Notes under the pieces: model-generated | What the model was told of the DNA's origin: nothing | The model's database searches: none | What the model saw: only the letters and a program-made list of their open reading frames with translations | Position numbers and translations under genes: made by a program | In this document: positions 6,159 through 22,926 of the stretch, in pieces | Position numbering within the stretch: the first letter of the stretch is position 1 | Layout: each line of letters begins with the position of its first letter | Source of the DNA: a virus | Virus record (IMG/VR): IMGVR_UViG_3300046008_001259 | Coordinates: 1-22,926 of that record | Reading direction: 5' to 3' (one strand) | Length of the DNA stretch: 22,926 nucleotides

Positions 6159-9100
6159 TTATAACGTTTTAAGCATTTCAATTAATTCTTTTTGAGGAAA
6201 TACATCACTTTTATCTTTTCTAACTGAGTTGTGAGAGTATAAACCTGGTACACCTGTTAATGCGTCCTGACTTAATCCTTTGTTTGGTGGAAATAAAGCA
6301 TCGTAAGATTTTTGACCTAACCATTTAACAGGAATTTTGTGTTTTGCAGACCAGCTTAATATTAAATTTTTAACTGACGCTATTTGTGCAGGGGTATATT
6401 TATGATAATATAAATGATCTTTATATGCTTTAGGTTTTCCATTTATGTCTACAGCAGTTGCTACTTGATCTCTAGGGATTTCTGTTCCTCCAGAATAAAA
6501 TTTACCATTTCTTTCTGTTAAAAAACCATAAGCTGTTATTTCAACTGATAAGCCTATATCTTGAACTAATCGTCCTGCTCCAGCATGATACGAAACGTAT
6601 TTATCATCAAATAAATATTCAATATGACCTCCCTTATCAATTACAGTATGAGTAGAAGCGGGATCATTTAATGCTGTTCTTAAATTAAATACATCTACTG
6701 TTCCTTTTCCTTTATCAAAAAGTTGAGCACCAGCTGTATGATGGAGGTAAATTTGAGTTTTAACAGTTGTCCGGTTACTACCAAAAGCACTAGTACTAAA
6801 ATCAAATCCACTTGGAAATGTTTTTACAGTTGGTACTGCAGTTTGAGTAGTTGAAGTATTGGTAGAAGTAGCAACTTCTGCAAATTTACCTTTTGAAATA
6901 ACTAATGATTCTATTTTAGTGAACCATTTATTGTCTGCTATATCATGAGTAACTCCTTTAATTAAAAACTCAACATTTTCAGGGTAATTTGAAGGTAAAA
7001 AATCAGTATCAACAGTAAATTTACTATATATTTTCATTCCTGATAATCCATCCATTGTTAATGACATATTGAATGGTATAAATCCTGTGCCTGTGGCTAA
7101 TGATTTTTGTTGGGCTACATCATTTGGATCTATTCCTTTTTCAAGAAGACTAACAGTATATTTTTTAGAAGCAATTTGGTCTTCCATTTGTTTAATATTA
7201 AGAATAGTACCTTTATAAGCGTCTACATCTGAAATATTCATTGTGGGTTCAGATGGAAGATCACTTAATTCTTCTAACCAATCGAAATAATCTGATAAAG
7301 TTTTGTCGTATCTTGTTTTAAGAGCATCTAATTCTAATGATTGAGTAGTTAAAGTATTTACAATATTTTGTTGTTGTTCTTTTGCTTTTTGTTTTAATGC
7401 GTATGTATCTAAAATTTCTTTCTTATATCTATCACTTAATCCAACATTTAATTTAGATAATGCTGTTGATTCAGATCCTACTACTGATCCATTTGCTGCT
7501 GCTCCAACTGTTATCATTGTAGCTAATTCTGGGGTAAGTTCTGTTGTAAAACTAAAATCTTTAATAAATGAAGCATGACTAGCTCCATTATATGTTGACA
7601 TTGAACTAGCAGGATCTGATGTATTGTATCCATATAAATCAAATGAGGCTAATTTAGTAGATAAATTAACTTGATTTGGGTAAAATCCATTGATTTTAGA
7701 CATTACTTCATCATTATTGGGTAATGGGTTTGCATCTATAATTTTAATTGTATTAGTAGATTCATCTATTATTGGTTCTAAAGCATTTAAACTACCTAAT
7801 CCCTCATTTACACCATCTAGTATTCCTTTTAATAAGTCAAATAATGATGTTTTGTTTTTATTATCTTTTAATTCATCAATTTTATTTAATATAAATGCCA
7901 TATTAACATATATATTCATTATATTACCATATTCTAACCCTTGAGATGTATCACTATAATCTGGGTCAATAAATGGAGAACAATTTCCTGAGAATGGTAC
8001 ATCTTCAAATGTTTTCCAAAATAATCCCTGTATTATATTTATTGTTCTTCCAACAATGCAAAGTCTTGGATCTACTCCTACTTGCCATTTATACGCATAC
8101 ATTAAATTTGTATTCTGGTCGTAATCAATATTTAATAATGGAGAATAGTCTTTTAAACTAGAATCAGCTGGGACACATTTAGGTATTAAATAATTCTGAA
8201 TATATGATAAAAATGTACCTAATCTAATATAATAAGTTTCATCAGCACCATCTTTATCGTCCCACGGAATAGAAATAGCATCTACAACTTTTATAATATT
8301 GCCTTTCTTATCATAAACTTTAAACATATCCGAAGATATATTTTCTGATATAAGAGGTGCAAGGTATTCATCTATATAATGGGTATCAAATACTGCGTCC
8401 CATCCCCATTTTGCAAATCCGCCTATTTTTGTTAATGTATTATCGAATTTAATACTTTCGTTTTGCTCTTTAATAGTATTAGCTCCTATATCTGAAAATG
8501 AAAAGGTTATTGATTTATCGGTTTTATCACCTTTTACTCCTACTCCCGATACTAATTGATATTTGCAAAAGTAAAAGAATTGTCCTATTGAACTTTTCTT
8601 AGCATACCAATCAATTAAATCTCCATCATCCTCAGGTTTTTCTTCTGGTTTTTTAGTAGCAGGATCGGTATTTAAAGTATCTTCTATAATAGCATTAATC
8701 TTTAAAGACTCAATTATATCTCCACTACTTATTAAATCTAAAGTAATATCATAACTTCCATCTTTTAAAAATGACCAACTAAAGTTTTTTACTTTAGCAA
8801 ACATTGCATCATAATTTCCTACTGATTTTGCTCTATTTTTATCTATTTTTTTAAGAAAACTATTATATGATTCACTACCATTTAAAAAATCATAAGCTAA
8901 ACTATTATTAGTATTAGTTTGTAAAACCCCTTTATTATCAAAATACATTGAATTTCCCCATTCTAAAAGAACTGAGTATCCTAAGCGTAAATATAAAACA
9001 TCAATGATTTCCATTTGTGCTTTATTAAATGCTTTCATTTTAACAGTTGCCTGTCTTAAAGACCCTCTATTTTCATGAGTAACAGATACGGTTTGAATAC

Positions 9101-9473
9101 CCATCATAGGACTAATACCAAATTCGTTTCCTCCTATTCCATAGGCGTTATTACCTCCTAAAGGATCATTTTGAAAATTTATTCCTCCTCTTTGTTCGTT
9201 TGTAGTTGAATCTACAGTACCATTAAATAGGACATATTTTCTAGCTAACTCAGACCCAGTAAGACCTAGTTTTTTTATAGTTGGGTTATTAATAGCTTCA
9301 ATTTTATCTATATTTGTAGATGAAATTAATTTACACCAAGCTGTATTAGCATTTAAATATATTATTTCCTCAGATGATCTTGTAGTATTTGAATATCCTG
9401 ATCCATAAACTTTTTGACGTTGTTCAATTTGTTTTATAATCCCATCTGGAAAGCCTTCTCCTAATAAATTCAT
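6159..9473 (-). CDS. baseplate hub protein fused to a C-terminal peptidoglycan amidase
   Basis: This 1104-aa protein joins a hub part and an enzyme. Residues about 120-220 (GIQTVSVTHENRGSLRQATV, FNKAQMEIIDVLYLRLGYSV, LLEWGNSMYFD) have the look of gp27-like hub proteins of T4-related tails. A coiled-coil stretch lies at about 690-790. After a Thr/Ser-rich linker, residues about 905-1104 form an Amidase_2 (N-acetylmuramoyl-L-alanine amidase) domain. YLHHTAGAQ has His911/912, YVSYHAGAG has His963, and YSHNSVRKDKSDVFP has His1081, Lys1088 and Asp1090, matching the family's Zn-ligand and catalytic pattern. It would cut the stem peptide from muramic acid as the tail crosses the cell wall, the job done in T4 by gp5 lysozyme. 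There is no signal peptide, consistent with a virion enzyme. It lies between the LysM wedge gene and the 214-aa gene. Confidence 0.85.
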   Translation of the reverse strand: MNLLGEGFPDGIIKQIEQRQKVYGSGYSNTTRSSEEIIYLNANTAWCKLISSTNIDKIEAINNPTIKKLGLTGSELARKYVLFNGTVDSTTNEQRGGINFQNDPLGGNNAYGIGGNEFGISPMMGIQTVSVTHENRGSLRQATVKMKAFNKAQMEIIDVLYLRLGYSVLLEWGNSMYFDNKGVLQTNTNNSLAYDFLNGSESYNSFLKKIDKNRAKSVGNYDAMFAKVKNFSWSFLKDGSYDITLDLISSGDIIESLKINAIIEDTLNTDPATKKPEEKPEDDGDLIDWYAKKSSIGQFFYFCKYQLVSGVGVKGDKTDKSITFSFSDIGANTIKEQNESIKFDNTLTKIGGFAKWGWDAVFDTHYIDEYLAPLISENISSDMFKVYDKKGNIIKVVDAISIPWDDKDGADETYYIRLGTFLSYIQNYLIPKCVPADSSLKDYSPLLNIDYDQNTNLMYAYKWQVGVDPRLCIVGRTINIIQGLFWKTFEDVPFSGNCSPFIDPDYSDTSQGLEYGNIMNIYVNMAFILNKIDELKDNKNKTSLFDLLKGILDGVNEGLGSLNALEPIIDESTNTIKIIDANPLPNNDEVMSKINGFYPNQVNLSTKLASFDLYGYNTSDPASSMSTYNGASHASFIKDFSFTTELTPELATMITVGAAANGSVVGSESTALSKLNVGLSDRYKKEILDTYALKQKAKEQQQNIVNTLTTQSLELDALKTRYDKTLSDYFDWLEELSDLPSEPTMNISDVDAYKGTILNIKQMEDQIASKKYTVSLLEKGIDPNDVAQQKSLATGTGFIPFNMSLTMDGLSGMKIYSKFTVDTDFLPSNYPENVEFLIKGVTHDIADNKWFTKIESLVISKGKFAEVATSTNTSTTQTAVPTVKTFPSGFDFSTSAFGSNRTTVKTQIYLHHTAGAQLFDKGKGTVDVFNLRTALNDPASTHTVIDKGGHIEYLFDDKYVSYHAGAGRLVQDIGLSVEITAYGFLTERNGKFYSGGTEIPRDQVATAVDINGKPKAYKDHLYYHKYTPAQIASVKNLILSWSAKHKIPVKWLGQKSYDALFPPNKGLSQDALTGVPGLYSHNSVRKDKSDVFPQKELIEMLKTL

Positions 9474-9802: not shown

Positions 9803-11995
9803 TTATTTTTGTGTTATAAATTTCTTAGTTAAAGGATCATATGTTAAATTATTATTATTAGTTTGACCAGCAGTAATACTTTTATTTAATGGTGTAGTTG
9901 AAGCCGGTACAGCAATAGTTAAAGCGGTAGCAGCGGCTAGTGGAGGAAGTTGTGGTATTGGGTTTAATATAGGTGTTGGGTTTGGTGAAGGAGCGGGGTT
10001 TGGATTAGGTGCAGGTACAGGATCCGGTTTAGGATATTTAGCTATAGGACCATAATTGTTATTTGTTCCTTGATTCAGTGCTATATATCTTTCTTTACCA
10101 TATGTATTTTTATCTGTTAATATATCTCCTTCTGGGTTGTAATTTACAATTTGTTTTCTTGGTACAAATGTATGAATAGGAGTAAAACTAAATCCACTAA
10201 CTTTAATAGTATGTGGTAGCTCTTTAACTGTATTATCTGATCCACCAGTATCATTTATACCTATTTCCCAAGTAGCATTGTCGTCATTCATATCATAACT
10301 AAATCCATTTATTATACCTGGTTGTTCATAAAAATATCCTCCAACAGTTAAAGTTACTATGTTACCTCTCATGTATCCATTATTACTATAATCGGGTGTA
10401 CATATTGAAGCTAAATAGTTTAATTTTTTATACATTGGAATAAGTTCTGCTTTTGATTGAGCAGCTACTGTCCAAGATAATGAAACTTTTCTGTCAAACC
10501 CACCGTAAGTGTAGAAGTTTTCACCTCTTCCTATATATTTTGTACCATTCCAATCAGCAGAATATGCATCTGATATTTGATTTAAAAATGCTCTAAAATG
10601 GATATATGTTTTTAAACTAGGGTTATCATTATCTATGACTCCAATTCTAAATTTAACTAAATCATTTCCATTTTTCTCATCTGGTGTGCTATCTGAATAT
10701 ATAGGTAAAGCATTAATTTTATCATATGATGTAATAGATGCATTTCCTCCAGATTTTCCCACTACTTCTCCACCACCTACTCCATTTGTATAACTTAATA
10801 AGTTTTTGTTAGATCTATTTCCTGGGTCTCCTAAATTAACTCTTTTTTCTATATTTTTAGCATCTGGTCCTGAGTAATCAGGTGATTGTATTAATGCATT
10901 ATTGTTATTTATGTTTGAATCTTTAAATTCTTTTCTTAATTGTTTTCTAAAATCACCTGGGGTAGTAATACCTTTTCTTCCTATATAATTTGAAATACCA
11001 TCTTGAGAATTATCCTTTGGAATTTGAATTAAATCTTGTAAAGTATATGTAATAGTACCATTATTGTTTTGATCTAAAAGATTTTCAGTATTATTATCTA
11101 CATTTGAAGATATAATACTTGGTAAATTATCATTAAATGGAATAAATGGAATATTATATTTTTCTGATATTATACCCCATATATTTGATAAATATAAAAA
11201 TCGATCTGCGTTTTCTTGAGTAGAAATAGGGACACTCTTGAATTCTCCTGCTCTAGTTAAATATTCATTTAAAGGTATTCTACGATTATAACCAAAGAAT
11301 TTATATGGATTATCTTTTAGTAGTGGGTTATTTACACCTGTTCTTTCACTAGCACTTGAACCTGCAAAACGAATATTTGTATTACCAATACCTAAAATAG
11401 ATCCCGGACCCCCTTTATATGTTAATATATTATTATTTGAAGAAGAAATATCATTACCAGCATATTTATTAATGTTATTTAATATTTTAACATCATATAA
11501 TTGATATAATCTATTAAGACGATATGCATTATTAGTATCGACTTGAGTAGAAAGTACTCTTTCAGAATATGTACTAATCCCACCTACTCCACCAAATGGA
11601 TTTAATCCTTGCTTATTAACATGTAATCCAAATGCTACTCCTCCTGCTTCAATTAATGTAGATAAAGGTGTATAAATGCCTTCATTTAAAAGTCCTGTAC
11701 TTGATTGAGTACGAACAGCCATCCTAGAAAGTAAATTTTGTTTAATAGTAAATAATAAACCACTTGGATTTCTTATATCTGTAAAATATTTACCTAATCT
11801 AACTACATCTAAAGCTGAGTTAGTCAAAGCTTTACTTCCACCTCTTAAGATGAAATCTTGGTTTAAATAACCAAATTCTCCTATTTTTTCAGGGATAGGA
11901 GTTTTAATGTATGGTTGATTACTACTTCCACCACCAATCCTATCATGTCCGAATTTATTATCTTTTAAATTAGATGTAAGATTTATTAATGGCAT
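9803..11995 (-). CDS. baseplate protein, 730 aa, with C-terminal Pro-rich tail
   Basis: This is a large virion protein of the baseplate block. Its central/C-terminal region (about residues 443-610: TYIHFRAFLNQISDAYSADW, GRGENFYTYGGFDRKVSLSW, KLNYLASICTPDYS, then WEIGI and TPIHTFVPRKQ) resembles domains I recall from baseplate and tube-initiator proteins of T4-like environmental phages. The N-terminal 400 residues are Asn/Gly-rich without a known motif. A Pro-Asn repeat stretch (PAPNPNPAPSPNPTP) at about 655-685 forms a flexible linker before a hydrophobic Ala/Thr-rich end. It begins 2 bases after the 142-aa gene and its stop abuts the LysM gene. A gp48/gp54-like cap role is possible but unproven. 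Confidence 0.7.
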   Translation of the reverse strand: MPLINLTSNLKDNKFGHDRIGGGSSNQPYIKTPIPEKIGEFGYLNQDFILRGGSKALTNSALDVVRLGKYFTDIRNPSGLLFTIKQNLLSRMAVRTQSSTGLLNEGIYTPLSTLIEAGGVAFGLHVNKQGLNPFGGVGGISTYSERVLSTQVDTNNAYRLNRLYQLYDVKILNNINKYAGNDISSSNNNILTYKGGPGSILGIGNTNIRFAGSSASERTGVNNPLLKDNPYKFFGYNRRIPLNEYLTRAGEFKSVPISTQENADRFLYLSNIWGIISEKYNIPFIPFNDNLPSIISSNVDNNTENLLDQNNNGTITYTLQDLIQIPKDNSQDGISNYIGRKGITTPGDFRKQLRKEFKDSNINNNNALIQSPDYSGPDAKNIEKRVNLGDPGNRSNKNLLSYTNGVGGGEVVGKSGGNASITSYDKINALPIYSDSTPDEKNGNDLVKFRIGVIDNDNPSLKTYIHFRAFLNQISDAYSADWNGTKYIGRGENFYTYGGFDRKVSLSWTVAAQSKAELIPMYKKLNYLASICTPDYSNNGYMRGNIVTLTVGGYFYEQPGIINGFSYDMNDDNATWEIGINDTGGSDNTVKELPHTIKVSGFSFTPIHTFVPRKQIVNYNPEGDILTDKNTYGKERYIALNQGTNNNYGPIAKYPKPDPVPAPNPNPAPSPNPTPILNPIPQLPPLAAATALTIAVPASTTPLNKSITAGQTNNNNLTYDPLTKKFITQK

Positions 11996-12717: not shown

Positions 12718-12727
12718 TTATAAATAT
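12718..12727 (-). promoter_or_regulatory. late-promoter-like element before the 90-aa baseplate gene
   Basis: The coding strand reads ATATTTATAATAAATT, 19 bases before the ATG. It is a close match to the element upstream of the tape measure, tube and sheath genes. The palindrome ATTTAT-A-ATAAAT is complete here. Confidence 0.55.
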
Positions 12728-12732
12728 TATGA

Positions 12733-15531
12733 TTATTGAAGTTTATATGTATTCATAGCAACAGATGTTCCAAATTTAGTACCATTCATACTATTTTCTA
12801 CTACTACTGGTTTATTGTTTGATTTTGATGATTCTTGTCGTAATGCTCGTAATTCTTCTAAAAGTGGAGATAGATCTTGTTGTGGTTGTGCTTGTGGTTG
12901 AGAAGAATTGCCTCTATTATTACCTACTTTTATTCCACCATCAGCTCCATACATTGTTTTATCTTTACCCATTAAATCAGTACCTACTTTTATTCCACCA
13001 TCAGCTCCATACATTGTTTTATCTTTACCCATTAAATCAGTACCTACTTTTATAGTACCATCAGCTCCATACATTGCTTTATCTTTAGGATTTAATTTAA
13101 CTGCACCAAATTCACCAAACATAATCGGACCTCCACTTGGATCTATTTCACCATCTTTCATAGATTTTAAAGCAGCATATCCTGCTACTGCGGCCGCAAC
13201 TGCCACTGCTGTTCCTATTCCTAATGTCATAGCAGATACACCCATTAATTCGGCAGCTGCTGTTGCCATAGCTTGGACTAATCTAATTGCCCCCATAGCT
13301 ATATTTTTTACTATTCCAGCTCCTTGAGCTAAAATAGAACCCACTATAGTATTTTCCATAACCATTCTAAATCCAGTTTGTACAGTAGTAGCAACATATT
13401 TAATTAAATTTTTTCCTAAATTCCATCCCTGCATAACCAATTTACCAAGTATGGTTTCTTCCATAGCTGCTCTAATTGATGTAAGAATATTGTTTCCAAA
13501 TAATCTGTTATATTGGTATGTTTGAGCAGCATTTTGTAAACCTAAAGTAGCTAAAATGCTTTGCCCTAAACCTAATTTAGTTGTTTCAAGAGTAGCTTGG
13601 GTTTGGTTTTGAGCTATTTTTGTAGCGTTTTGAGCAATTAAAAATGTATTTATAGCAGTCATTCCTTTAGAAACAACACTCATTCCTTTCATTATACCAT
13701 AAGGAATAAGTAAATATTTCCCCCACTGTATTGTGTATTTAAGTAAAGTACCTATAACTCCTACTATTGGACCCACAATTCCCATGATGTCAGCAAATAC
13801 ATCAAATACAGGCATTAATGGTTCAATTAATGAAACAAATATTTCTTTTAATTTTTCAATTGTTTGTGTAAATCGTTCTTGTACTGATTGTTGTTGAAAT
13901 TGGTTAGCTAATGCTTCGTTTCCTAAACGTTTCTTAGCTTCTTCTACTCCAACTTGTTTTACTAAGTTATCATATTTTTCTTTAGCATTTTCACCTTCAA
14001 CTCCCGATAATGCAACTAATGCTTCTCTATCCATTAAAGATTTTGCTAAATCATCTCTAGTTAATCCAGTTGCTTTAGCAATTGCTTCTTGTTGAATACG
14101 ATTCATTTTAGAAAATTCAGCTGTGCCTCCTACTTGTTGAAGGATTTCTGCTGAAGCACCTGCTATATCACCATTTATGGCTAATAATCTTGCTTTTTCT
14201 AAATTTAAATCTTTACCAGTAATTAATTCGGCTGATAATTCATTAGATATTGATGATTCAAAATCTAGTAAACCTTGAGATATGTGATCGGCTTGTTGTA
14301 AATTAATACCAAATTGTTTTGCTTTAAATGCTGCTTCAGCTAATTTTTCTGTTGTTCCTCCAATAGATAATTTAATAGAATCAGAAGTGTTAGCTACCTC
14401 TTTTAAAAGTTGTTTAGCATTTATTGTTAATTTATTTTGACCATTTAATGCTGCTACACTACCTAAAAATGATGCGGTATTGTCTTCTAAGTTTCCTCCA
14501 GTAGCTAAAGTTAATTTTTGAATACCAGCTAATTCATCATTAGTATAACCTGCTTGTTCTCTTAATTTAGTAAATGTTATTAAGTCTTCTTTATTTAATC
14601 TAGCATTAGAACCTAATGTTTGACCAACAGCCATCATTGATTCTTGTAAACCTTTAGTTGTAACAGCAACATCTCCTGACAGATTGGCTATGTCTGTTAA
14701 TTCCATTCTTAAATTAGCAGCACCATTGTAAGTTAAATCAAAACCTTTAGCTAGATCACCAATAGCACTATCAACAGATTTAAGTGTAGCTATTATTTCT
14801 GTAAATACAAATAAAGCTATATTTGCTGGGTTTGTTAAACTTTTAAATACTTGACCTGAAAGATTACTTATTCCTGCTGATAGTCCTTTTATACTACTTC
14901 CAGTTCCTTGTGCTGCTTTTTGAGCAGCTTCTAAAGCACTGCTAGTGTCAATTATATCACCTAATATAGGGATCTTTTTTATACCTTTTAAAACACCACT
15001 AAATACTCCTAATTTTTTATTAGTTTCTTCTAATGCTTGTTCTATTCCTTCAACTTCTTGTTTTTGCTTTTGAAGTGGTTCAATAGCAGCAAATGATAAT
15101 TCCTTAAAGTCGTTTTGAAGTTTATTAATTAAATTTTGTTTTTCAATCCTTTCATTTTCACTTATACTAGCATCTTCAGATAATTGTTTTTGGAGACTTC
15201 CTATTCGAGTAGTTAAAACTTGTTGTTCAGCTATTTTCTTATTTATCTGGTTTTGGATTTCTTTAGAAGATATTGATTTTTCATTTATTTTTACTTGATT
15301 TTTTATTAAATCTTCAGTAATTTTACTTAATGATTTTACAGATCGATTTATATCTTTATAAGTTAAATCAAAAGATCTTGCCTCAGAAGAACCTTCTTTA
15401 ATTTCATCAACTATATCAGATAATCTACTAGTAAGAGCCCTAAAGCCTTCTTCTAAAGCACCAGTGATTTCACCAATTTCTTCTAATGATTTTTTTGCAT
15501 CATCTGCTTTTTTCTTTGAATCGTCAGCCAT
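12733..15531 (-). CDS. tail tape measure protein
   Basis: This 932-aa protein has the tape-measure layout. A long charged coiled coil occupies about residues 1-180. Central helical segments include IQKLTLATGG, LLDFESSISNELSAELITG and IDTSSALEAAQKAAQG. Hydrophobic segments lie near 580-640 (MPVFDVFADIMGIVGPIVGV) and near 770-800 (GIGTAVAVAAAVAGYAAL). It is the longest tail gene before the baseplate block and directly follows the tail chaperone pair, the conserved gene order. Using the usual 0.15 nm per residue, it predicts a tail near 140 nm. Residues about 814-870 hold a repeat DKxMYGADGxIKVGTDLMGK in nearly three copies, encoded by a 60-base DNA repeat. Inside the virion it sets tail length and is ejected before DNA. 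Confidence 0.88.
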   Translation of the reverse strand: MADDSKKKADDAKKSLEEIGEITGALEEGFRALTSRLSDIVDEIKEGSSEARSFDLTYKDINRSVKSLSKITEDLIKNQVKINEKSISSKEIQNQINKKIAEQQVLTTRIGSLQKQLSEDASISENERIEKQNLINKLQNDFKELSFAAIEPLQKQKQEVEGIEQALEETNKKLGVFSGVLKGIKKIPILGDIIDTSSALEAAQKAAQGTGSSIKGLSAGISNLSGQVFKSLTNPANIALFVFTEIIATLKSVDSAIGDLAKGFDLTYNGAANLRMELTDIANLSGDVAVTTKGLQESMMAVGQTLGSNARLNKEDLITFTKLREQAGYTNDELAGIQKLTLATGGNLEDNTASFLGSVAALNGQNKLTINAKQLLKEVANTSDSIKLSIGGTTEKLAEAAFKAKQFGINLQQADHISQGLLDFESSISNELSAELITGKDLNLEKARLLAINGDIAGASAEILQQVGGTAEFSKMNRIQQEAIAKATGLTRDDLAKSLMDREALVALSGVEGENAKEKYDNLVKQVGVEEAKKRLGNEALANQFQQQSVQERFTQTIEKLKEIFVSLIEPLMPVFDVFADIMGIVGPIVGVIGTLLKYTIQWGKYLLIPYGIMKGMSVVSKGMTAINTFLIAQNATKIAQNQTQATLETTKLGLGQSILATLGLQNAAQTYQYNRLFGNNILTSIRAAMEETILGKLVMQGWNLGKNLIKYVATTVQTGFRMVMENTIVGSILAQGAGIVKNIAMGAIRLVQAMATAAAELMGVSAMTLGIGTAVAVAAAVAGYAALKSMKDGEIDPSGGPIMFGEFGAVKLNPKDKAMYGADGTIKVGTDLMGKDKTMYGADGGIKVGTDLMGKDKTMYGADGGIKVGNNRGNSSQPQAQPQQDLSPLLEELRALRQESSKSNNKPVVVENSMNGTKFGTSVAMNTYKLQ
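12921..13090. repeat. 60-bp tandem repeat inside the tape measure gene
   Basis: 12921-12980 and 12981-13040 are identical 60-mers, and 13041-13090 is a third, partial copy with a few changes. The period is a multiple of three, so copies encode 20-residue units and change in copy number would keep the frame. The identity of two copies suggests recent duplication or ongoing slippage or recombination. Confidence 0.95.
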
Positions 15532-16669: not shown

Positions 16670-17158
16670 TTAGAAGTTTAAGATACAATAATCCATTGCA
16701 AGCGTTACTGATAATTCTTGAGCTGCTGATTCATCATCCCAGCTGTAATCACCAAAATTTGCTTTAGTAATAAATGCACCTTTAATAATCCATTCAGATA
16801 CTATATCACCTACAGGTCCTAATACGTTAATAGTTACATCTTTCTTATAAAAATCAGAATAACCATCACGACCAGTAACTGATTCATGATGTAAACGTAC
16901 CCATTCCATTACTGATTGAGCACCAGATGGAGTGATAGGATCAAACAATGTCATATCAATACTTCCCCATTTAGCTTTACCTTTAATTTTACGGTAAACG
17001 TTAATATGATTTAAAGTAATTTCATCCATTGTTACTTCTACAGCACCAATTTTTTTAATAGTATATGAAGGAATTCCATCTACATACATAATAAATCGAT
17101 TTTTTACTTTCGGTTCAAAAGCTGTAAAGAAAATTTCATTTGGAGATAATATTGCCAT
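16670..17158 (-). CDS. tail tube protein (gp19-like)
   Basis: This 162-aa protein has almost the same length as T4 gp19 (163 aa). It has the tube-protein pattern: an early KNRFIMYVDGIPSYTIKKI, a central strand pair (EITLNHINVYRKIKGKAKW), SIDMTLFDPITPSGAQSVMEW, and a late ANFGDYSWDDESAAQELSVT that closes the beta barrel. Tube proteins stack as hexamers around the tape measure protein and form the DNA channel inside the sheath. It lies directly after the sheath gene, the canonical order, with its own upstream element 20 bases before the ATG and its own terminator, which fits the need for high copy number. Confidence 0.92.
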   Translation of the reverse strand: MAILSPNEIFFTAFEPKVKNRFIMYVDGIPSYTIKKIGAVEVTMDEITLNHINVYRKIKGKAKWGSIDMTLFDPITPSGAQSVMEWVRLHHESVTGRDGYSDFYKKDVTINVLGPVGDIVSEWIIKGAFITKANFGDYSWDDESAAQELSVTLAMDYCILNF

Positions 17159-17239: not shown

Positions 17240-18952
17240 TTATGCTGGGAAACTTGCTCCAGTTGGTGTAACATTAAAGTCTAAGTAAATGAATTCAGCT
17301 GTTTTAGTTGGTTGTAAGTAAATTTGACCTACTAATTCATTTCTATCAATTACATCAGGTGTATTATTAGAATCATCCATAATCACTTTAAATGCATATA
17401 AACCTTGTCTTTGTTGAACACTAGTTAAATATGGGTTTACTTGTGATAAGAAGTTATTTCTTGTTGCAATTGTATTTTGTTCAAATACTAAATTATTTGC
17501 TACTTGAGAAATATATGATTTTAATGATATTAATAAACGTCTAACATTTACACGATCAAGAGCTGATGCTGCTGTTTGTAATGTTTTTTGTCCGTATACT
17601 ACAACACCTTGACCTGGGAATGTAGCGATTGGATTTACTTTTCCAGTATATAATGTATCTCTATTTGTTTGAGATAATTTTATTTCTGCTCTAACTACTT
17701 GAGATAAACCACCACGATTAATACCTGCTGGAGCGAACCAAGGTTCAGCTACTGTGTCATTATAAGCGTAAACACCTGCAATTACTGTTGATGCTGGGCA
17801 CCAAACAATATTTCCTGTGCTTGGATCAATAACTTGACACCATGGCCAGTATTCAGCTGCATATGAAGTATTTCTAGCTGATGCTTGAGCTACTACTGCA
17901 GATACTGTTTTGTTGTAAGCTACTGGATCTAATACAAATATATTATCTCCTCTATTTTGTGTATTTGTAACGATTGTGCTAATTTGACCTGCATAATCTG
18001 CATCATATAAACCTGGTGTAAATAATACATTAAATTTATAATCATCAGTGTTGGCTAATAAATTAATCATGTTATCATAACACCCACCTGTTAACCCTTG
18101 AGTATCAGTTGAGTTGATGTTTTCATAAAAATTAGCACCACCTTTAATAGTACCTGTAGCACCACCAAATGATCCACTTCCATTTATTGGAATAGAAGAT
18201 GTGTATTGAGGTTTAGCAATTCCATTATTATCGTAATAATTTGGAGTTGTATTATTTATTGATTTTATAGTTATATAATTTGATCTGTTAGCATAAGAAC
18301 CAGAATATTCAATTTGGTTTCTTACTGAATTGTAGTTTTCGATTGAATCACCTATTACACGTGAAATGTAATTTGATGCATTTGGATCTAAACTTAATCC
18401 TGTCCAAGTTTCTAAAACTGCTGGTTGTAATGTATTATCATTTCCTCTTCTAATTAATAAATCAAATGTTCCTGATCCAGTATTAGCGTTAGTAATTTGC
18501 CATCTTAAATTATCAGCTGATCCACTTGCTAATGCACCACTAACTTCAGCACTTGTACTGTTCATTACTACACCTTGTGAAAAAGTTTGTAATGTAAATG
18601 AAGATGAATTAATATTAATTGAATTACCCGTTGCTGAACTTGTAGCTGGGGTGTAAGATCCTGTTACTACTCTTGCTATTAGTAATGATTGACCACCATT
18701 AACAAAATAATTGTAAGCTGCAATTGATGTAAAATAAGTGTAAGTTTTACTATCATTAGTACTTCCACTTGTGAAAGTAGTACCAAATTTGTTAACAAAT
18801 TCGTTGTACGTAGTTACGATTGTTGGAACTTCAACTGGGCCTTTAACGGTTGGTCCAATTAATGCTGCTCCTACTGTAACCGGTCTTTTAGATACAAAAG
18901 AAGAATCATTTTCTCTTGCTAAAACACCAGGGGATATTAAAGTTTCTGCCAT
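17240..18952 (-). CDS. contractile tail sheath protein (gp18-like)
   Basis: This 570-aa protein has the conserved sheath N-terminus: ETLISPGVLARENDSSFV, then AALIGPTVKGPVEVPTIV and a motif (FVNKFGTTF). The C-terminal sheath domain follows the usual pattern (YAAEYWPWCQVIDPSTG, WCPASTVIAGVYAYND, WFAPAGINRG, then NVRRLLISLKSYISQVAN and FNVTPTGASF). T4 gp18 is 659 aa. The middle 200 residues are Ser/Thr/Gly/Asn-rich and form the variable surface domain. Sheath subunits stack outside the tube and contract to push it through the envelope. It is followed by the tube gene and bounded by its own upstream element and terminator. Its first four codons take part in a 12-base inverted repeat with the leader. 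Confidence 0.95.
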   Translation of the reverse strand: MAETLISPGVLARENDSSFVSKRPVTVGAALIGPTVKGPVEVPTIVTTYNEFVNKFGTTFTSGSTNDSKTYTYFTSIAAYNYFVNGGQSLLIARVVTGSYTPATSSATGNSININSSSFTLQTFSQGVVMNSTSAEVSGALASGSADNLRWQITNANTGSGTFDLLIRRGNDNTLQPAVLETWTGLSLDPNASNYISRVIGDSIENYNSVRNQIEYSGSYANRSNYITIKSINNTTPNYYDNNGIAKPQYTSSIPINGSGSFGGATGTIKGGANFYENINSTDTQGLTGGCYDNMINLLANTDDYKFNVLFTPGLYDADYAGQISTIVTNTQNRGDNIFVLDPVAYNKTVSAVVAQASARNTSYAAEYWPWCQVIDPSTGNIVWCPASTVIAGVYAYNDTVAEPWFAPAGINRGGLSQVVRAEIKLSQTNRDTLYTGKVNPIATFPGQGVVVYGQKTLQTAASALDRVNVRRLLISLKSYISQVANNLVFEQNTIATRNNFLSQVNPYLTSVQQRQGLYAFKVIMDDSNNTPDVIDRNELVGQIYLQPTKTAEFIYLDFNVTPTGASFPA

Positions 18953-19001: not shown

Positions 19002-19250
19002 CTAGTTACTTATAAATTCTCCTTTTTCAAGGTTGATAGTTCCGTCACCATATGTTTTTTGTAACGATTTACCTATTGTTATTTCTTCTTGTTGAAGTTT
19101 TTTTAACTCTTCTGTAAGAAATTCTTTTTGTAATTTAATTTCTTGAATTCTTATTTCAGTTAAACCAAATTGTTCAGTTAATTGAATTCGTCTTTCTTGA
19201 ATCGTTTTTAATGATTGTAACTCTTCTTGTGTTAAAACTTTTGTTTCCAT
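19002..19250 (-). CDS. small coiled-coil protein, 82 aa
   Basis: No named family is recognised. Residues about 5-70 form a strongly charged, Gln/Glu/Lys-rich helical stretch (QEELQSLKTIQERRIQLTEQ and QKEFLTEELKKLQQEE) with a break near GLTEIR, so the product is a helical hairpin similar in shape to a prefoldin subunit. The tail (GDGTINLEKGEFI) is a short beta-type element. It sits between a small virion gene and the sheath gene. The shape and position fit an assembly factor or a coiled-coil virion part. The leader is A-rich (AAAAAACAAAAAAAAATGG); only a degenerate form of the late element is present. Confidence 0.75.
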   Translation of the reverse strand: METKVLTQEELQSLKTIQERRIQLTEQFGLTEIRIQEIKLQKEFLTEELKKLQQEEITIGKSLQKTYGDGTINLEKGEFISN

Positions 19251-19274: not shown

Positions 19275-19550
19275 TTAAAATATTGATGAACTTACCCATG
19301 ATGTACCATTATATAAAAAAAGACATGGTGATGATGTTGATACAGAAAAATCAACATACATACTACCTGTATTAGGATTATTAGGTTGGATTATTGGGAT
19401 TATTAATTCACCTGTTACTTCTAAACTTCCAGATATAATAGCACTTCCGGTATATGGAAAGGGGCCATTATTTACTTCATCTATTACTTGGTTAATTATT
19501 GTTCTTGCTACTAAACCAGAATCTCCATTTTGTACGTATGATATACTCAT
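19275..19550 (-). CDS. small beta-rich virion protein, 91 aa
   Basis: The product is unknown but has the look of a phage fibre or decoration module. A helical start (VARTIINQVIDEVNNGPFP) is followed by beta strands IISGSLEVTGELIIPIIQP, then TGSMYVDFSVSTSSPCLFLY and NGTSWVSSS. The phrase (I/T)xGSLxVxGxxI also occurs in the 307-aa protein two genes upstream (TITGSLIVNGNIIYTP). The ending LFLYNGTSWVSS is a typical last strand pair of tail-fibre-like proteins. It follows the carbonic-anhydrase-like gene and precedes the coiled-coil gene. Confidence 0.7.
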   Translation of the reverse strand: MSISYVQNGDSGLVARTIINQVIDEVNNGPFPYTGSAIISGSLEVTGELIIPIIQPNNPNTGSMYVDFSVSTSSPCLFLYNGTSWVSSSIF

Positions 19551-19573: not shown

Positions 19574-20500
19574 TTATCCTTGAGCAAATAAACCATCTTT
19601 ATAATCTTGTGTAAGATCTGTCCAAGTATTTGTTAATGAATTATATGACCAAAATTGAACTACATCAATATATGCTTGAAATTGATAATCTGTATTGATA
19701 AAAATACCACTCATTGCGTACATTGTTCTATTTGCAAGTGCACTAGCGAATGATCCTGAGTTATTATATGTATAATCCCATCCTGCTTCTCTTATTATGT
19801 CTGTAGCCACCATTACATTTTCACTAATTGAACCACTAAGTGAAGCGGAATATGGATAAATTATATCTGCTAATTTCCACAATTCATAATTTTCATTATC
19901 ATATGGAGCATTTGATTGTGATGGTGGATTTGGATCAGTTGTAACTAATCCTACTGCTCCATGAACTGCTCCACAGTTTGTAGATATAGCTGCTTGACCT
20001 TTACGGAATTGATATCCTGCAGATCCAGTAAAAGTAACTCCTATGTGTGGTGTACAAGATACAAATAACGTTCCTGTATCGGTGATATGTGAAGCATAAG
20101 CTCCAAATCCAACTGATCCTACAAATGGATATCCTGCTAATCCACCTGCCATAAATGGTCCTAGAAAAGACTGCATAGATAATGGATATTGTCCTAAATT
20201 TCCTGTAGCTGTAAATGCATCTACATCATCAGAGCAAATTGCTACAGCATGTAATACATCATTTGATGGGTAACCACTTTTTTGTTTAATATAATTTACA
20301 GTATATGTACCCCACACCTCTGTTAAAGAAGCACTTGGATAAAGTCCTCTTACAGTTGTTGTATATAATGATTGTGATGGATTTATTCCATTATTATCTG
20401 TAAGTGTAAGTTGACCTTGATTTACTGATAAAATTACAGTTCCTACTGGTGATGAAGTAGGAATTGGTCCGTTTTGTTGAAGTTCAATATAAGTTGGCAT
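19574..20500 (-). CDS. virion-cluster protein with LCIB/LCIC-type beta-carbonic anhydrase-like domain
   Basis: This 308-aa protein seems to have two parts. Residues 1-50 (GTVILSVNQGQLTLTDNNG) look like a short beta module common at the start of phage structural proteins. Residues about 80-240 resemble the LCIB/LCIC carbonic anhydrase family: HAVAICSDDVDAF with Cys89 and Asp91, FMAGGLAGYPFVGSVGFGAY (117-135), SHITDTG (His138), PHIGVTFTGSAGYQFRKGQ (His152) and STNCGAVHGAV (Cys176). Cys89, His152 and Cys176 are the likely zinc ligands, and Cys-x-Asp is the beta-CA pattern. In that family the enzyme hydrates CO2 to bicarbonate; some members are inactive. The C-terminal part (250-308) has aromatic strands like fibre modules. 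Neighbours are virion genes, with a late-promoter-like element 21 bases upstream, so expression late and presence in the virion are likely but inferred. The assignment rests on remembered family motifs, not a search. Confidence 0.7.
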   Translation of the reverse strand: MPTYIELQQNGPIPTSSPVGTVILSVNQGQLTLTDNNGINPSQSLYTTTVRGLYPSASLTEVWGTYTVNYIKQKSGYPSNDVLHAVAICSDDVDAFTATGNLGQYPLSMQSFLGPFMAGGLAGYPFVGSVGFGAYASHITDTGTLFVSCTPHIGVTFTGSAGYQFRKGQAAISTNCGAVHGAVGLVTTDPNPPSQSNAPYDNENYELWKLADIIYPYSASLSGSISENVMVATDIIREAGWDYTYNNSGSFASALANRTMYAMSGIFINTDYQFQAYIDVVQFWSYNSLTNTWTDLTQDYKDGLFAQG

Positions 20501-20521: not shown

Positions 20522-20531
20522 TTATAAATAT
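20522..20531 (-). promoter_or_regulatory. late-promoter-like element before the carbonic-anhydrase-like gene
   Basis: The coding strand reads ATATTTATAATAAACAAAAAC, 21 bases before the ATG. Confidence 0.55.
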
Positions 20532-20549: not shown

Positions 20550-21473
20550 TTAATCCCAGTAAAAGTCATTGTCAATTGTCCATGCATTATTCATCCAAAT
20601 TGCTCTTGGAACATCTTTTCTCCAATTACCAAGTACATTAGGATCTGAAAATGCTTGCCATCCTCCTGGTCCTCCTGATAATTGTCCATAGTATTCTGGT
20701 TTGCGAATACTATCTATCCATATTTGTATTCTAGCTGCATTTCCACCACCTAAATTAACTCCATTACCTGTCACTATTAATTCTACTGATTGTCCTTCGT
20801 ATTGTCCTTCTGGTAAGTAGTAATGTAAATATTGTGTATTAGCATCCCATCCTGTTGTATCTATTGAATAAACGGATTGTTGACCATCTAAGCGAGTTGC
20901 TACTGTTGAATAGTTTGAAAGTAAATTTGCAGTATTATTTTTAAATCCTAAATTACTGTATCCTGTATTATTTAATTGAGGAAATCCATAAGCTTGATTT
21001 GCTTTATCAAATGTTATTATTGTGTTATTATTTGAAACAATTCCAGGACCTACTACCGAACCTGGTCCTGTTATTCCTTGATTAGCTATTAAACTTCCAC
21101 TAACTATAACAGTTCCATTGTTAATTAATTCACCTAATATAAGATATTGAGCATCTTCTTCTACAATAAAAGTACAATTTAATGGTATTAATAAATCTCC
21201 ATGATTAATAATATTTTCATAACTTTTAATAGTACTAATATTGTCTGTTTGGTTTTGTAAAAACGGTGTATATATAATATTTCCATTTACAATTAATGAA
21301 CCCGTTATTGTTTGATCACCTACAAATGAATTTGATCCTGATAGTATTCCTAAACTATCAATAGTACTTTGAATAACTTCTCTTACTTTTGATGCTGTAT
21401 TCTGTTTGTTTAAAGCGTCAGTAATATTAGTATTTAAAAGTACAGTTAGCTGGTTTTTTGTTTGTTGTGACAT
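20550..21473 (-). CDS. beta-rich virion structural protein, 307 aa
   Basis: No specific function is recognised. A short helical start (residues 1-45, QLTVLLNTNITDALNKQN) leads into strand-rich repeats: DQTITGSLIVNGNIIYTPF, INHGDLLIPLNCTFIVEEDA, LGELINNGTVIVSGSLI. These look like a small beta-helix or fibre shaft. The C-terminal half (about 170-307) may be a globular beta domain (YLHYYLPEGQYEGQSVELIV, then ARIQIWIDSIRKPEYYG and GGPGGWQAF) resembling receptor or sugar-binding tips in appearance only. It sits between the gp15-like gene and the carbonic-anhydrase-like gene, so it may be a neck, whisker or decoration protein. A late-promoter-like element lies 16 bases upstream. Confidence 0.7.
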   Translation of the reverse strand: MSQQTKNQLTVLLNTNITDALNKQNTASKVREVIQSTIDSLGILSGSNSFVGDQTITGSLIVNGNIIYTPFLQNQTDNISTIKSYENIINHGDLLIPLNCTFIVEEDAQYLILGELINNGTVIVSGSLIANQGITGPGSVVGPGIVSNNNTIITFDKANQAYGFPQLNNTGYSNLGFKNNTANLLSNYSTVATRLDGQQSVYSIDTTGWDANTQYLHYYLPEGQYEGQSVELIVTGNGVNLGGGNAARIQIWIDSIRKPEYYGQLSGGPGGWQAFSDPNVLGNWRKDVPRAIWMNNAWTIDNDFYWD

Positions 21474-21510: not shown

Positions 21511-22422
21511 TTATCCAAATGAATCATCAAATGAATCATCAAATGATCTATATATTTGAGGATAACTTCCTCCTCCTTTATTTTCTCCCATTATTTGTTC
21601 TGTTACTGTTATCTTAACTACATCTGGTATTTTCTTTAATGCGTTCATATCTTTTTGTAGTACGTCTGGAATTATATATCCATTCATTTTAATACTAAAT
21701 GTACTGCTTACTGTTCTTTCCTCTTTATCCGCTAATTCATTTTTAATAGCAAACGAATTAATCATCGCTCTAAACTGAAATCTTGAAGGATCGCCCCAAT
21801 ATGAATCAGATGCATATTCAATTGCTTCTACGATTTTATTGAGCTGATCCATGTAATAAGTATTGATGGCACAACTATAAGTTACTGTGATATAATCTGG
21901 GATTACTACTGCGTAATTTACTTTTTGTGGTATAACATTATTTAATACATTAAAATTGTCGTATGCGTTTTTACTACTATATTTTTTTCTAGCTATTGAA
22001 ATATTGTTTGGATTATTTGCATCTAATTTATTTGCTACTGATCTTACTTTTTCAATGTTATCCCTTTTAAACATAAGGATAGGCATCATAATTCTACCTT
22101 GAGAATCTCTAAAATACCCAAATTTTTGAAATGAAGCCCATTTTTCAGGTGAACCATAAATAATAGGAACTTCTATTCTTTCTCCATTTTGTAATACAAA
22201 TGGTTTAATTACATTTTGAAAATAGTAAAAAACAGCCTCATCAATATCTTGAATACCAATTGAAAATGGTTTTACAGAATCATCTGTAAATGAAAGTTGA
22301 TTTCCTCTATTTACACCATTAGCATAGTTAGGATTTCCTACCTCAGTATCGAATGCTTTATGTTGTTCCACACTGATTTCTCTTTGTGGTTTTGGAACTG
22401 GTGTTCTACTATTTTTAGCCAT
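21511..22422 (-). CDS. tail sheath stabiliser/tail completion protein (gp15-like)
   Basis: This 303-aa protein resembles T4 gp15 (272 aa), which caps the tail and joins it to the neck. Shared features are the early FQNVIKPFVLQNGERIEVPI, then YGSPEKWASFQ, the PILMFKRDNIEK region, YAVVIPDYITVTYSCAINTYYMDQLNKIVEAI (a strand followed by a long helix, about residues 170-200), and the closing SSTFSIKMNGYIIPDV. An N-terminal extension of about 50 residues precedes the family core. The C-terminus ends in a short repeated SFDDSFDDSFG. Its start overlaps the stop of the neck gene by one base, so the two are translationally coupled. Confidence 0.82.
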   Translation of the reverse strand: MAKNSRTPVPKPQREISVEQHKAFDTEVGNPNYANGVNRGNQLSFTDDSVKPFSIGIQDIDEAVFYYFQNVIKPFVLQNGERIEVPIIYGSPEKWASFQKFGYFRDSQGRIMMPILMFKRDNIEKVRSVANKLDANNPNNISIARKKYSSKNAYDNFNVLNNVIPQKVNYAVVIPDYITVTYSCAINTYYMDQLNKIVEAIEYASDSYWGDPSRFQFRAMINSFAIKNELADKEERTVSSTFSIKMNGYIIPDVLQKDMNALKKIPDVVKITVTEQIMGENKGGGSYPQIYRSFDDSFDDSFG

Positions 22423-22926
22423 TACAATAATCTCGTTCTAATAATGTTAACTCTATCACTAGGACAATAATGACACTCTGCAGTAACTGAAACATTATAA
22501 CCAAATTCAGCTAATCCTGGGTTAGTAGGATTTACATTATATGGATAATCAGGATCTTTACCACCCCAAAACTGTGTAATATTTGTGTTATCTACTTCCC
22601 AATAACTTTCTTGATATAATATAATATCTCCTACTTCGGGATGCACGTTTGCATCAACTAAATCGTCTCTTAAGAATGCAAATGACATTGGCCAATCAAA
22701 ATTAACTCCTAATTCACTTGTAGGACTTACATTATCACCAATAGTTATTAAAGCATATAATAATACTGGTTGTTCAAAAAATTTACCTCCAGACGATTCA
22801 CCATACATATTAATTTTTGTTTCAGCTAATTTGTATTTGTAAATAGCACACTGTTGAGAAATAACGTTTCCCATTACTTCTCTATTCATATATCTTAGAA
22901 ACGAAGCGTCTCTACTGGATGCAAAT
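22422..22926 (-). CDS. neck protein (gp14-like), N-terminus cut by window edge
   Basis: The frame is open to the right edge. The first in-frame Met is at 22889, but the codons before it (FASSRDASFLRY) are plausible protein, so the real start is probably beyond the window. About 167 residues are visible. The stretch VHPEVGDIILYQESYWEVDN followed by FWGGKDPDYPYN resembles the part of T4 gp14 with GDLIYF...LFEI...YDPFYQLG. gp14 forms the neck with gp13 and closes the head after DNA packaging. The gene order neck, then gp15-like, then sheath and tube supports this. An NMYGESSGGKFF segment near the N-terminus is common in these neck proteins. Confidence 0.75.
   Translation of the reverse strand, partial: FASSRDASFLRYMNREVMGNVISQQCAIYKYKLAETKINMYGESSGGKFFEQPVLLYALITIGDNVSPTSELGVNFDWPMSFAFLRDDLVDANVHPEVGDIILYQESYWEVDNTNITQFWGGKDPDYPYNVNPTNPGLAEFGYNVSVTAECHYCPSDRVNIIRTRLL

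Follow-up and report, generated by a model that had tools for sequence, protein, structure and literature searches.

An LCIB-type beta-carbonic anhydrase domain encoded in a phage virion gene block and combined with different partner modules in related viruses

Enzymes of phage particles are usually depolymerases or peptidoglycan hydrolases. The fold and the family of the LCIB-type beta-carbonic anhydrases are already known, the latter from algal CO2 concentration, and we here extend this family to phages. For viruses, carbonic anhydrases have been reported among the auxiliary genes of giant viruses (PMC13037468) and of viral metagenome reads (PMC3474794), as far as the accessible parts of these sources go; in the accessible part of a further article (PMC13232217), carbonic anhydrase serves as a size standard only. 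No virion LCIB domain is described in the literature found, which was available in part and mostly without subscription journals, and the same holds for the accessible passages of PMC7215798, PMC9614477 and PMC11494819. That is, the place of such a domain in phage particles is without description in the literature found.

We analysed a stretch of 22,926 nucleotides (hereafter the window), i.e., positions 1 to 22,926 of the IMG/VR virus record IMGVR_UViG_3300046008_001259, whose main genes lie on the minus strand. One of them encodes a 308-aa product, which a preliminary description had assigned to the LCIB/LCIC family from the letters alone. Residues 68-283 match PF18599 (LCIB_C_CA) with E=5.2e-28 and 98.3 bits, so that the membership criterion, i.e., the curated cut-off of 25 bits, is met. 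A profile search without an LCIB-family hit, which had been named as an outcome that would refute the assignment, did therefore not occur. The gene and its parts are as follows.

19574..20500, minus strand: gene of the 308-aa LCIB-type protein (ORF; PF18599, E=5.2e-28)
19595..20371, minus strand: LCIB beta-carbonic anhydrase fold, residues 44-302 (range aligned to PtLCIB4, 5b5y)
20372..20500, minus strand: N-terminal segment, residues 1-43, of low model confidence (outside the Pfam match)

The best PDB sequence matches of the protein (phmmer) are solved LCIB proteins, namely 6kfs (3.4e-16) and PtLCIB4 (5.9e-14), and a 71-row profile compared with the PDB yields 6kfs (2.3e-56) as well as Chlamydomonas LCIB (2.1e-19) and LCIC (3e-17). 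The AlphaFold model, computed from a 71-row alignment, has a pLDDT of 84 and a pTM of 0.83. It superposes on 6kfs with Z 27.8 (240 residues, 2.2 A) and on the solved LCIB enzymes in general at 2.2-2.4 A over about 240 residues. With Z values of 27.8 (6kfs), 27.5 (PtLCIB4, 5b5y) and 21.7 (5k5w), the predicted model meets the criterion of a solved-LCIB fold, and Foldseek gives TMt values of 0.84-0.86 for 5b5y_A and 6kfs. A chance motif match is ruled out, since profile, sequence and predicted fold all assign the 308-aa product to the LCIB-type beta-carbonic anhydrases. Among the viral models of BFVD, none matched the fold (0 of 168 matches at E<=0.001). PADLOC shows no match for the window protein (the match of the relative L019 reaches only 0.054), and PDB entry 9c2d, named 'Tail protein', matches weakly (E=0.019, residues 145-189). 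The first 40 residues have pLDDT values of 30-58. No anchor is recognisable in the window form itself, for which residues 1-43 are modelled with low confidence; by inference, they are a possible attachment segment.

The motifs listed beforehand, i.e., CSDDVDAF (Cys89, Asp91), FMAGGLAGYPFVGSVGFGAY, PHIGV (His152) and STNCGA (Cys176), are all present, and the Cys/His/Cys spacings given with them (63 and 24 residues) were confirmed. The codons of interest are the following.

20234..20236, minus strand: Cys89, putative zinc ligand (invariant in phage and other rows)
20228..20230, minus strand: Asp91, putative catalytic residue (invariant)
20087..20089, minus strand: His138, aligned with PtLCIB4 His88 (invariant; numbering by hand)
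20045..20047, minus strand: His152, putative zinc ligand (invariant)
20003..20005, minus strand: Arg166, candidate partner of Asp91 by inference (invariant)
19973..19975, minus strand: Cys176, putative zinc ligand (invariant)

Among the phage rows covered, Cys89 and Asp91 are unchanged in 47/47 and His138, His152, Arg166 and Cys176 in 49/49. The Cys-His-Cys criterion is thus met at the sequence level, and so is invariance of the other candidate catalytic residues (Asp91, His138, Arg166) in both phage and other rows. Counting only positions covered in at least 80% of the rows, 14/251 positions are invariant in both row sets (49 phage and 58 other rows). Seven of these are polar (C89, D91, H138, H152, R166, C176, N269), six of which are the putative zinc or reaction-site residues. 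Cys89, His152 and Cys176, which we take to be the zinc ligands, align with CSDEV, PHVGV/SHVGV and the second Cys of CCGS in the solved LCIB proteins. Mapped by hand, His138 corresponds to PtLCIB4 His88 (mutated in entry 5b5z), consistent with the structure-alignment ranges, and Ser90 to PtLCIB4 Ser47 (mutated in entry 5b60). The Arg of CSDEVxR, found in PtLCIB4 and 6kfs, is replaced by Ala or Gly in the phages. Since this position varies in the non-phage rows, too (mostly His, Arg, Asn or a gap), the Arg is not family-defining. The six residues have been retained over a long stem and within a phage group that shows 42-100% identity to the window protein. Judged from these alignments alone, this argues for a working metal site in the phage LCIB domain; zinc content and activity are not shown.

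The genes around the LCIB gene are listed next, together with a short upstream element.

16670..17158, minus strand: tail tube (phrog_4542, 1.3e-24)
17240..18952, minus strand: tail sheath (phrog_23, 1.7e-73; PF04984, 1.3e-13)
19002..19250, minus strand: conserved protein of 82 aa, coil-like, encoded ahead of the sheath (immuto gene 229, 40%, E=1.7e-19)
19275..19550, minus strand: 91-aa decoration-like protein (in the relative L005, a 432-aa YadA-head protein stands there)
20523..20530, minus strand: TATTTATA, promoter-like element (common to LCIB, sheath, tube and other genes)
20550..21473, minus strand: appendage-like protein of 307 aa for which no family was found (in L006/L007, LCIB is fused to the N-terminal ~60 aa of this protein)
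21511..22422, minus strand: 303-aa neck-region gene (28% to a Mel-JY01 gene, E=6.7e-36)
22422..22889, minus strand: 155-aa neck-region gene, longer in relatives (28% to a Mel-JY01 gene, E=1.1e-22)

Downstream of the LCIB gene follow the 91-aa gene, the 82-aa gene, sheath and tube, while the 307-aa gene and then the two neck-region genes are located upstream. The earlier placement between neck/completion and sheath genes hence stands, i.e., we find sheath and tube on one side and neck genes resembling those of Microcystis phage Mel-JY01 on the other. In Mel-JY01, the homologues of the neck genes have a head-tail-adaptor-like gene on one side and the sheath on the other. As these homologues directly precede the 82-aa counterpart and the sheath, Mel-JY01 has nothing in the LCIB slot. 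A head-tail adaptor homologue is the next gene out, just past the window, in the relative L003 (phrog_211, E=2.1e-10).

The sheath of the Flavobacterium phage immuto is 52% identical to the window sheath. Ahead of its 82-aa homologue and sheath, immuto carries genes annotated as structural or tail fiber, one lysozyme and several hypothetical genes; two genes ahead of the sheath contain Laminin_G_3. Homologues of the two neck genes are absent among the immuto genes compared. In L005, a YadA-head repeat protein of 432 aa (L005:3130-4428) replaces the 91-aa gene of the window and is thus encoded beside LCIB. Given the structural and fibre genes of immuto and the YadA-head protein, the LCIB slot between neck genes and sheath seems to be a site of decoration-type genes. 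For the 307-aa neighbour, GenBank phages show no match at E<=0.01.

We also observed TATTTATA at window positions 12719, 15548, 17180, 18975, 20523 and 21491, each time beginning 24-30 bases ahead of a start codon. The six genes concerned encode LCIB, the 307-aa protein, sheath and tube, together with two further genes that start at 15531 and 12698. Within a set 20-base stretch, it precedes 6/21 tested starts, while random places (2,000 draws, not A+T-matched) gave 0.11 on average and 3 at most. Of the relatives L003-L007, some of which are nearly identical to the window, all five carry the element ahead of both LCIB and sheath, and four carry it ahead of the tube. We take TATAAATA to be the T4 late element, with TATTTATA as its reverse complement. 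The whole-window count of TATAAATA is not above chance (12 vs. 9.66 expected). The late-promoter-like element of the preliminary description is thus real, but it is TATTTATA that the coding strand reads, with TATAAATA on the other strand (20523-20530). That TATTTATA acts as a promoter is an inference; it may be a late promoter that mirrors the T4 element. The LCIB gene therefore meets the criterion of lying within a virion gene block and sharing its late-type element, with the reservation that the random-place control was not A+T-matched. Fusions and an insertion seen in relatives lend this placement further weight, provided that their partners are virion proteins, as we infer.

Two side observations concern tail genes. 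A 1104-aa baseplate-region protein (window 6159-9473, minus strand) has an amidase-like C-terminus (phrog_1794, 0.00024, residues 899-1043), which raises the possibility of a tail protein fused to a peptidoglycan-cutting domain. Furthermore, L007 shows extra ORFs between tail genes (L007:9556-10353 and 11229-11855) that are absent there in the window and, by a motif, presumably resemble homing endonucleases.

With segments of solved LCIB proteins added to the query alignment, we found LCIB ORFs in 64 IMG/VR loci on contigs of up to 272 kb; a further partial locus (L008) stems from a separate search. The GenBank phages (50,697 records) gave no match at E<=0.01 for three different phage LCIB queries. 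The larger records of the set (43) were searched as a whole, and each holds a single PF18599 match above the cut-off (43/43). A sheath match is present in 28/43 records, many of which are fragments; since none of the 43 is rated at least 90% complete, all of them may be.

The 64 loci show different architectures. The window form of 308 aa (type a) is found in 5/64. In two loci (type b, L006/L007), a ~60-aa N-terminal segment precedes the LCIB domain (374 aa). This segment shares 77-82% identity with the N-terminus of the 306/307-aa protein that the window, L003 and L005 encode, and the 306/307-aa gene itself is missing from both type-b loci. The fibre motif in the N-terminus of L007 has no GenBank phage match at E<=10. 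A single locus (type c, L015) encodes 399 aa with a C-terminal extension, and in three loci (type d) LCIB is inserted in a larger protein; one of these, L069, is cut at a contig end and is 98.8% identical to L016 over 580 residues. Type e, i.e., 355-363 aa with an N-domain of ~70 aa, comprises 50/64 loci by profile (one cut at the start, one at the end), and L043, L055 and L067 are cut too early for classification. The fusions and the insertion occur in relatives and not in the window gene, and the virion nature of the partners is inferred.

The N-domain is found in 89 ORFs, 33 with LCIB and 56 (40 different) without it, when 80 of 100 loci are kept and LCIB is counted with an LCIB-domain-only profile. 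N-domain ORFs without LCIB carry long Thr/Pro-type linkers, Laminin_G_3 (L201), DUF285 (L174) or unidentified modules. We infer that the N-domain is a virion anchor because it is shared among such proteins and L201 matches a virion-structural PHROG (phrog_8510, 2.9e-19). The type-e LCIB loci mapped adjoin DNA polymerase B, HtrL_YibB and fibre-like genes; other neighbours of N-domain LCIB genes look to us like glycosyltransferases.

Some further observations were made on these loci. L174:4989-9305 encodes 1438 aa with the same N-domain and six DUF285 stretches (E=5.8e-178), DUF285 being named from Mycoplasma. A 930-aa gene beside an N-domain LCIB gene (L064) was initially read as a terminase; this was dropped, as it is a DNA polymerase B. 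In L015 (2969-7900), two NodU-like carbamoyltransferase genes lie just before LCIB, one of them fused to HtrL_YibB. A link of carbamoylation to LCIB was dropped, as only 1/43 records (L015) shows a carbamoyltransferase match.

Since lectin-type modules occur on the N-domain and an adhesin can occupy the slot, the main rival explanation is a binding module: the LCIB fold would be reused as a receptor-binding or adhesion knob of the virion, with zinc and pocket serving stability or small-ligand recognition without turnover. Beside Laminin_G_3 and long repeat modules on the N-domain elsewhere, the YadA-head protein next to LCIB and the LamG proteins before the immuto sheath fit this explanation, and so does the long phage stem (2.5 changes per site), as it would be seen after a change of function. 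On the other hand, Asp91, His138 and Arg166 are not needed for a metal and are nevertheless as unchanged as the zinc ligands in the phage rows covered. Binding modules would generally be expected to diversify more. With regard to enzyme versus structural or binding fold, the conservation of the putative catalytic residues leans towards an enzyme, and we consider a mere binding module rather unlikely, albeit worth keeping in mind.

The insertion is best seen in L016 and L017, whose LCIB-containing proteins have 776 aa. Conservation of the N-terminal 118 residues of the L016 protein extends to 197 IMG/VR loci, the best 80 of which were kept for comparison. Of these 80 carrier homologues, 78 lack the LCIB domain (77 are complete with 499-515 aa, one is cut at a contig end), and the 78 match both flanks of L016 with 66-96% identity per piece. 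The junction is clean, i.e., RRRATSFDLILFRIP is followed by 10 residues (L240) or by 286 residues with LCIB (L016) and then by YWDEGVGYDYNDFN. An uninterrupted ~500-aa carrier together with LCIB elsewhere is found in 15/43 LCIB records (one of these carriers is truncated by a contig end, and another has an identity of only 39%). Together with the single copy in 43/43 records, this implies one LCIB copy per record, mounted variously.

The carrier itself shows no Pfam or NCBIfam match and none among GenBank phages at E<=10; PHROGs matches are weak (0.046 for L240, 0.23 for its relative L300), and the PDB profile search gave only WD-40 matches (0.014 and 0.05). Within 58 aligned rows, identity to the L240 carrier (L240:4001-5503) is 76-95%. 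The AlphaFold model of the latter is poor (pLDDT 42.7), and the Foldseek rows listed for it are mostly immunoglobulin-type with query-normalised TM-scores of at most 0.16, so that we set them aside. Given that no search identified the carrier and its model is poor, a virion role is inferred from conservation and neighbours only. The L016 carrier is located ~5 kb from a gp23-type major capsid gene (PF07068, 7.3e-71). The gene ahead of the carrier in L016/L017 resembles, by a motif, what we presume to be a gp5-type baseplate hub; none of the searches gave confirmation of this identity.

These architectures bear on another explanation, in which the LCIB protein is an intracellular auxiliary enzyme, i.e., a carbonic anhydrase gene that merely stands among late genes and aids host metabolism or pH during infection. 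The window form without a recognised anchor would fit, as would the DNA polymerase and HtrL_YibB genes beside the N-domain forms and the auxiliary genes reported for giant viruses (PMC13037468) and viral metagenome reads (PMC3474794), to the extent these sources were accessible. In contrast, the 55 LCIB ORFs of genome contigs are all at most 266 aa long, while most phage ones carry further modules; insertion in a conserved phage protein and fusion to the N-terminus of a neighbour have no obvious use for a free enzyme; and the upstream element is common to sheath and tube. A free intracellular enzyme thus fits poorly with the insertion, the fusions and the short genome-contig homologues, and we regard it as quite improbable.

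To place the phage proteins within the family, we used a tree of 100 rows (44 phage, 53 genome contigs, 3 PDB), leaving out L008, L043, L055, L057, L067, L069 and rows of at most 120 residues. All 44 phage rows are found on one side of a branch with a support of 100/100, i.e., they form a clade unless the root falls among them, and the stem of the phage group is the long one noted above. The bootstrap came close to settling without fully doing so, and the program issued a warning about long branches in the bacterial rows. Hosts of the LCIB-carrying phages are inferred and are probably Bacteroidota.

The long stem and the conserved pocket residues would also be in accordance with a changed substrate, that is, a virion-mounted zinc hydrolase of beta-carbonic anhydrase fold that acts on another small molecule or modifies the host surface. 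Carbonyl sulfide and CS2 hydrolases belong to the beta-carbonic anhydrase group. Since there is no positive evidence for any substrate, we give this explanation the least weight and consider it very unlikely.

We therefore narrowly favor a zinc carbonic-anhydrase domain that was acquired once by a T4-like phage lineage and is mounted on the virion, where virion location, zinc and catalysis are each inferred. The domain would have been shuffled among virion appendage proteins and is probably still catalytic, which is inferred without activity data. If the LCIB carriers are virion proteins, as we infer, the domain would stand on the outside of neck, tail or baseplate; display on one of these is most likely, based on fusions, insertion, slot and shared element. 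Zinc would be bound via Cys89, His152 and Cys176, with Asp91, Arg166 and His138 in the reaction site. The reaction would then be CO2/bicarbonate interconversion or a closely related hydration, catalysed at the host surface while the phage adsorbs, in a CO2 and pH gradient that respiring cells would make. Such zinc hydratase action at the cell surface is the most likely one, although residue conservation is its only basis.

Going one step further, a working carbonic anhydrase on the particle's outside, moved among carriers as a one-per-virus cassette, may be used at the host surface, e.g., to read or shift CO2, bicarbonate and pH such that irreversible adsorption or tail contraction takes place only beside a respiring cell. 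This is a tentative proposal that we find conceivable but would not yet expect to hold. Several findings count against the favored virion-mounted enzyme. The most frequent form, i.e., the N-domain type (50/64), is located, in the loci mapped, near DNA polymerase B, HtrL_YibB and glycosyltransferase-like genes, which speaks against virion display. The window form has no recognisable anchor, the carrier has no clear family or GenBank phage relative, and sheath matches are present in 28/43 records only. Concerning the enzyme reading, a binding role would account equally well for the lectin-type modules that share the N-domain, and the Arg of CSDEVxR is changed. If activity is shown, the domain would come close to a new class of virion enzyme: a carbon-chemistry metalloenzyme that retains its catalytic residues and occurs as a single movable cassette in many uncultured phages would represent a new virion-borne enzyme class. 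It also raises the testable idea that phages sense or alter CO2 and pH around the cell during attachment.

Finally, we compared the locus with known systems. With regard to position, the YadA-head protein of L005 (the immediate neighbour of LCIB in the stretch from the neck genes to the sheath) and the immuto LamG 'structural protein' genes (ahead of the 82-aa homologue and sheath) are alike, but they encode adhesin or lectin domains and not PF18599. Classical beta-carbonic anhydrases (3ucj, 1i6o) share the core fold with Z of about 11-13, while identity is only 9-18% in the rows listed. Chlamydomonas LCIB (5k5w) and LCIC (5b5x) are alike in fold (Z 21.7 and 21.3) and more distant in sequence (profile 2.1e-19 and 3e-17). 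LCIB homologues of bacterial genomes (Bacteroidota, Balneolota, Planctomycetota and others; one record among the genome contigs is titled archaeon) show 25-37% identity and the same invariant residues. They differ in that 55/55 genome-contig ORFs have at most 266 aa (49 of them at least 200 aa, some cut by contig ends) and in that the 53 genome-contig rows of the tree fall outside the phage group. The solved chains of PtLCIB4 of Phaeodactylum (5b5y) and of the 'CCM related protein' 6kfs differ by their length of 267-284 aa without the extra phage modules and by the Arg of CSDEVxR, which is Ala/Gly in the phages. They are alike in fold (Z 27.5 and 27.8), in the PF18599 motifs, in the aligned putative zinc ligands and in the equivalent of His88.
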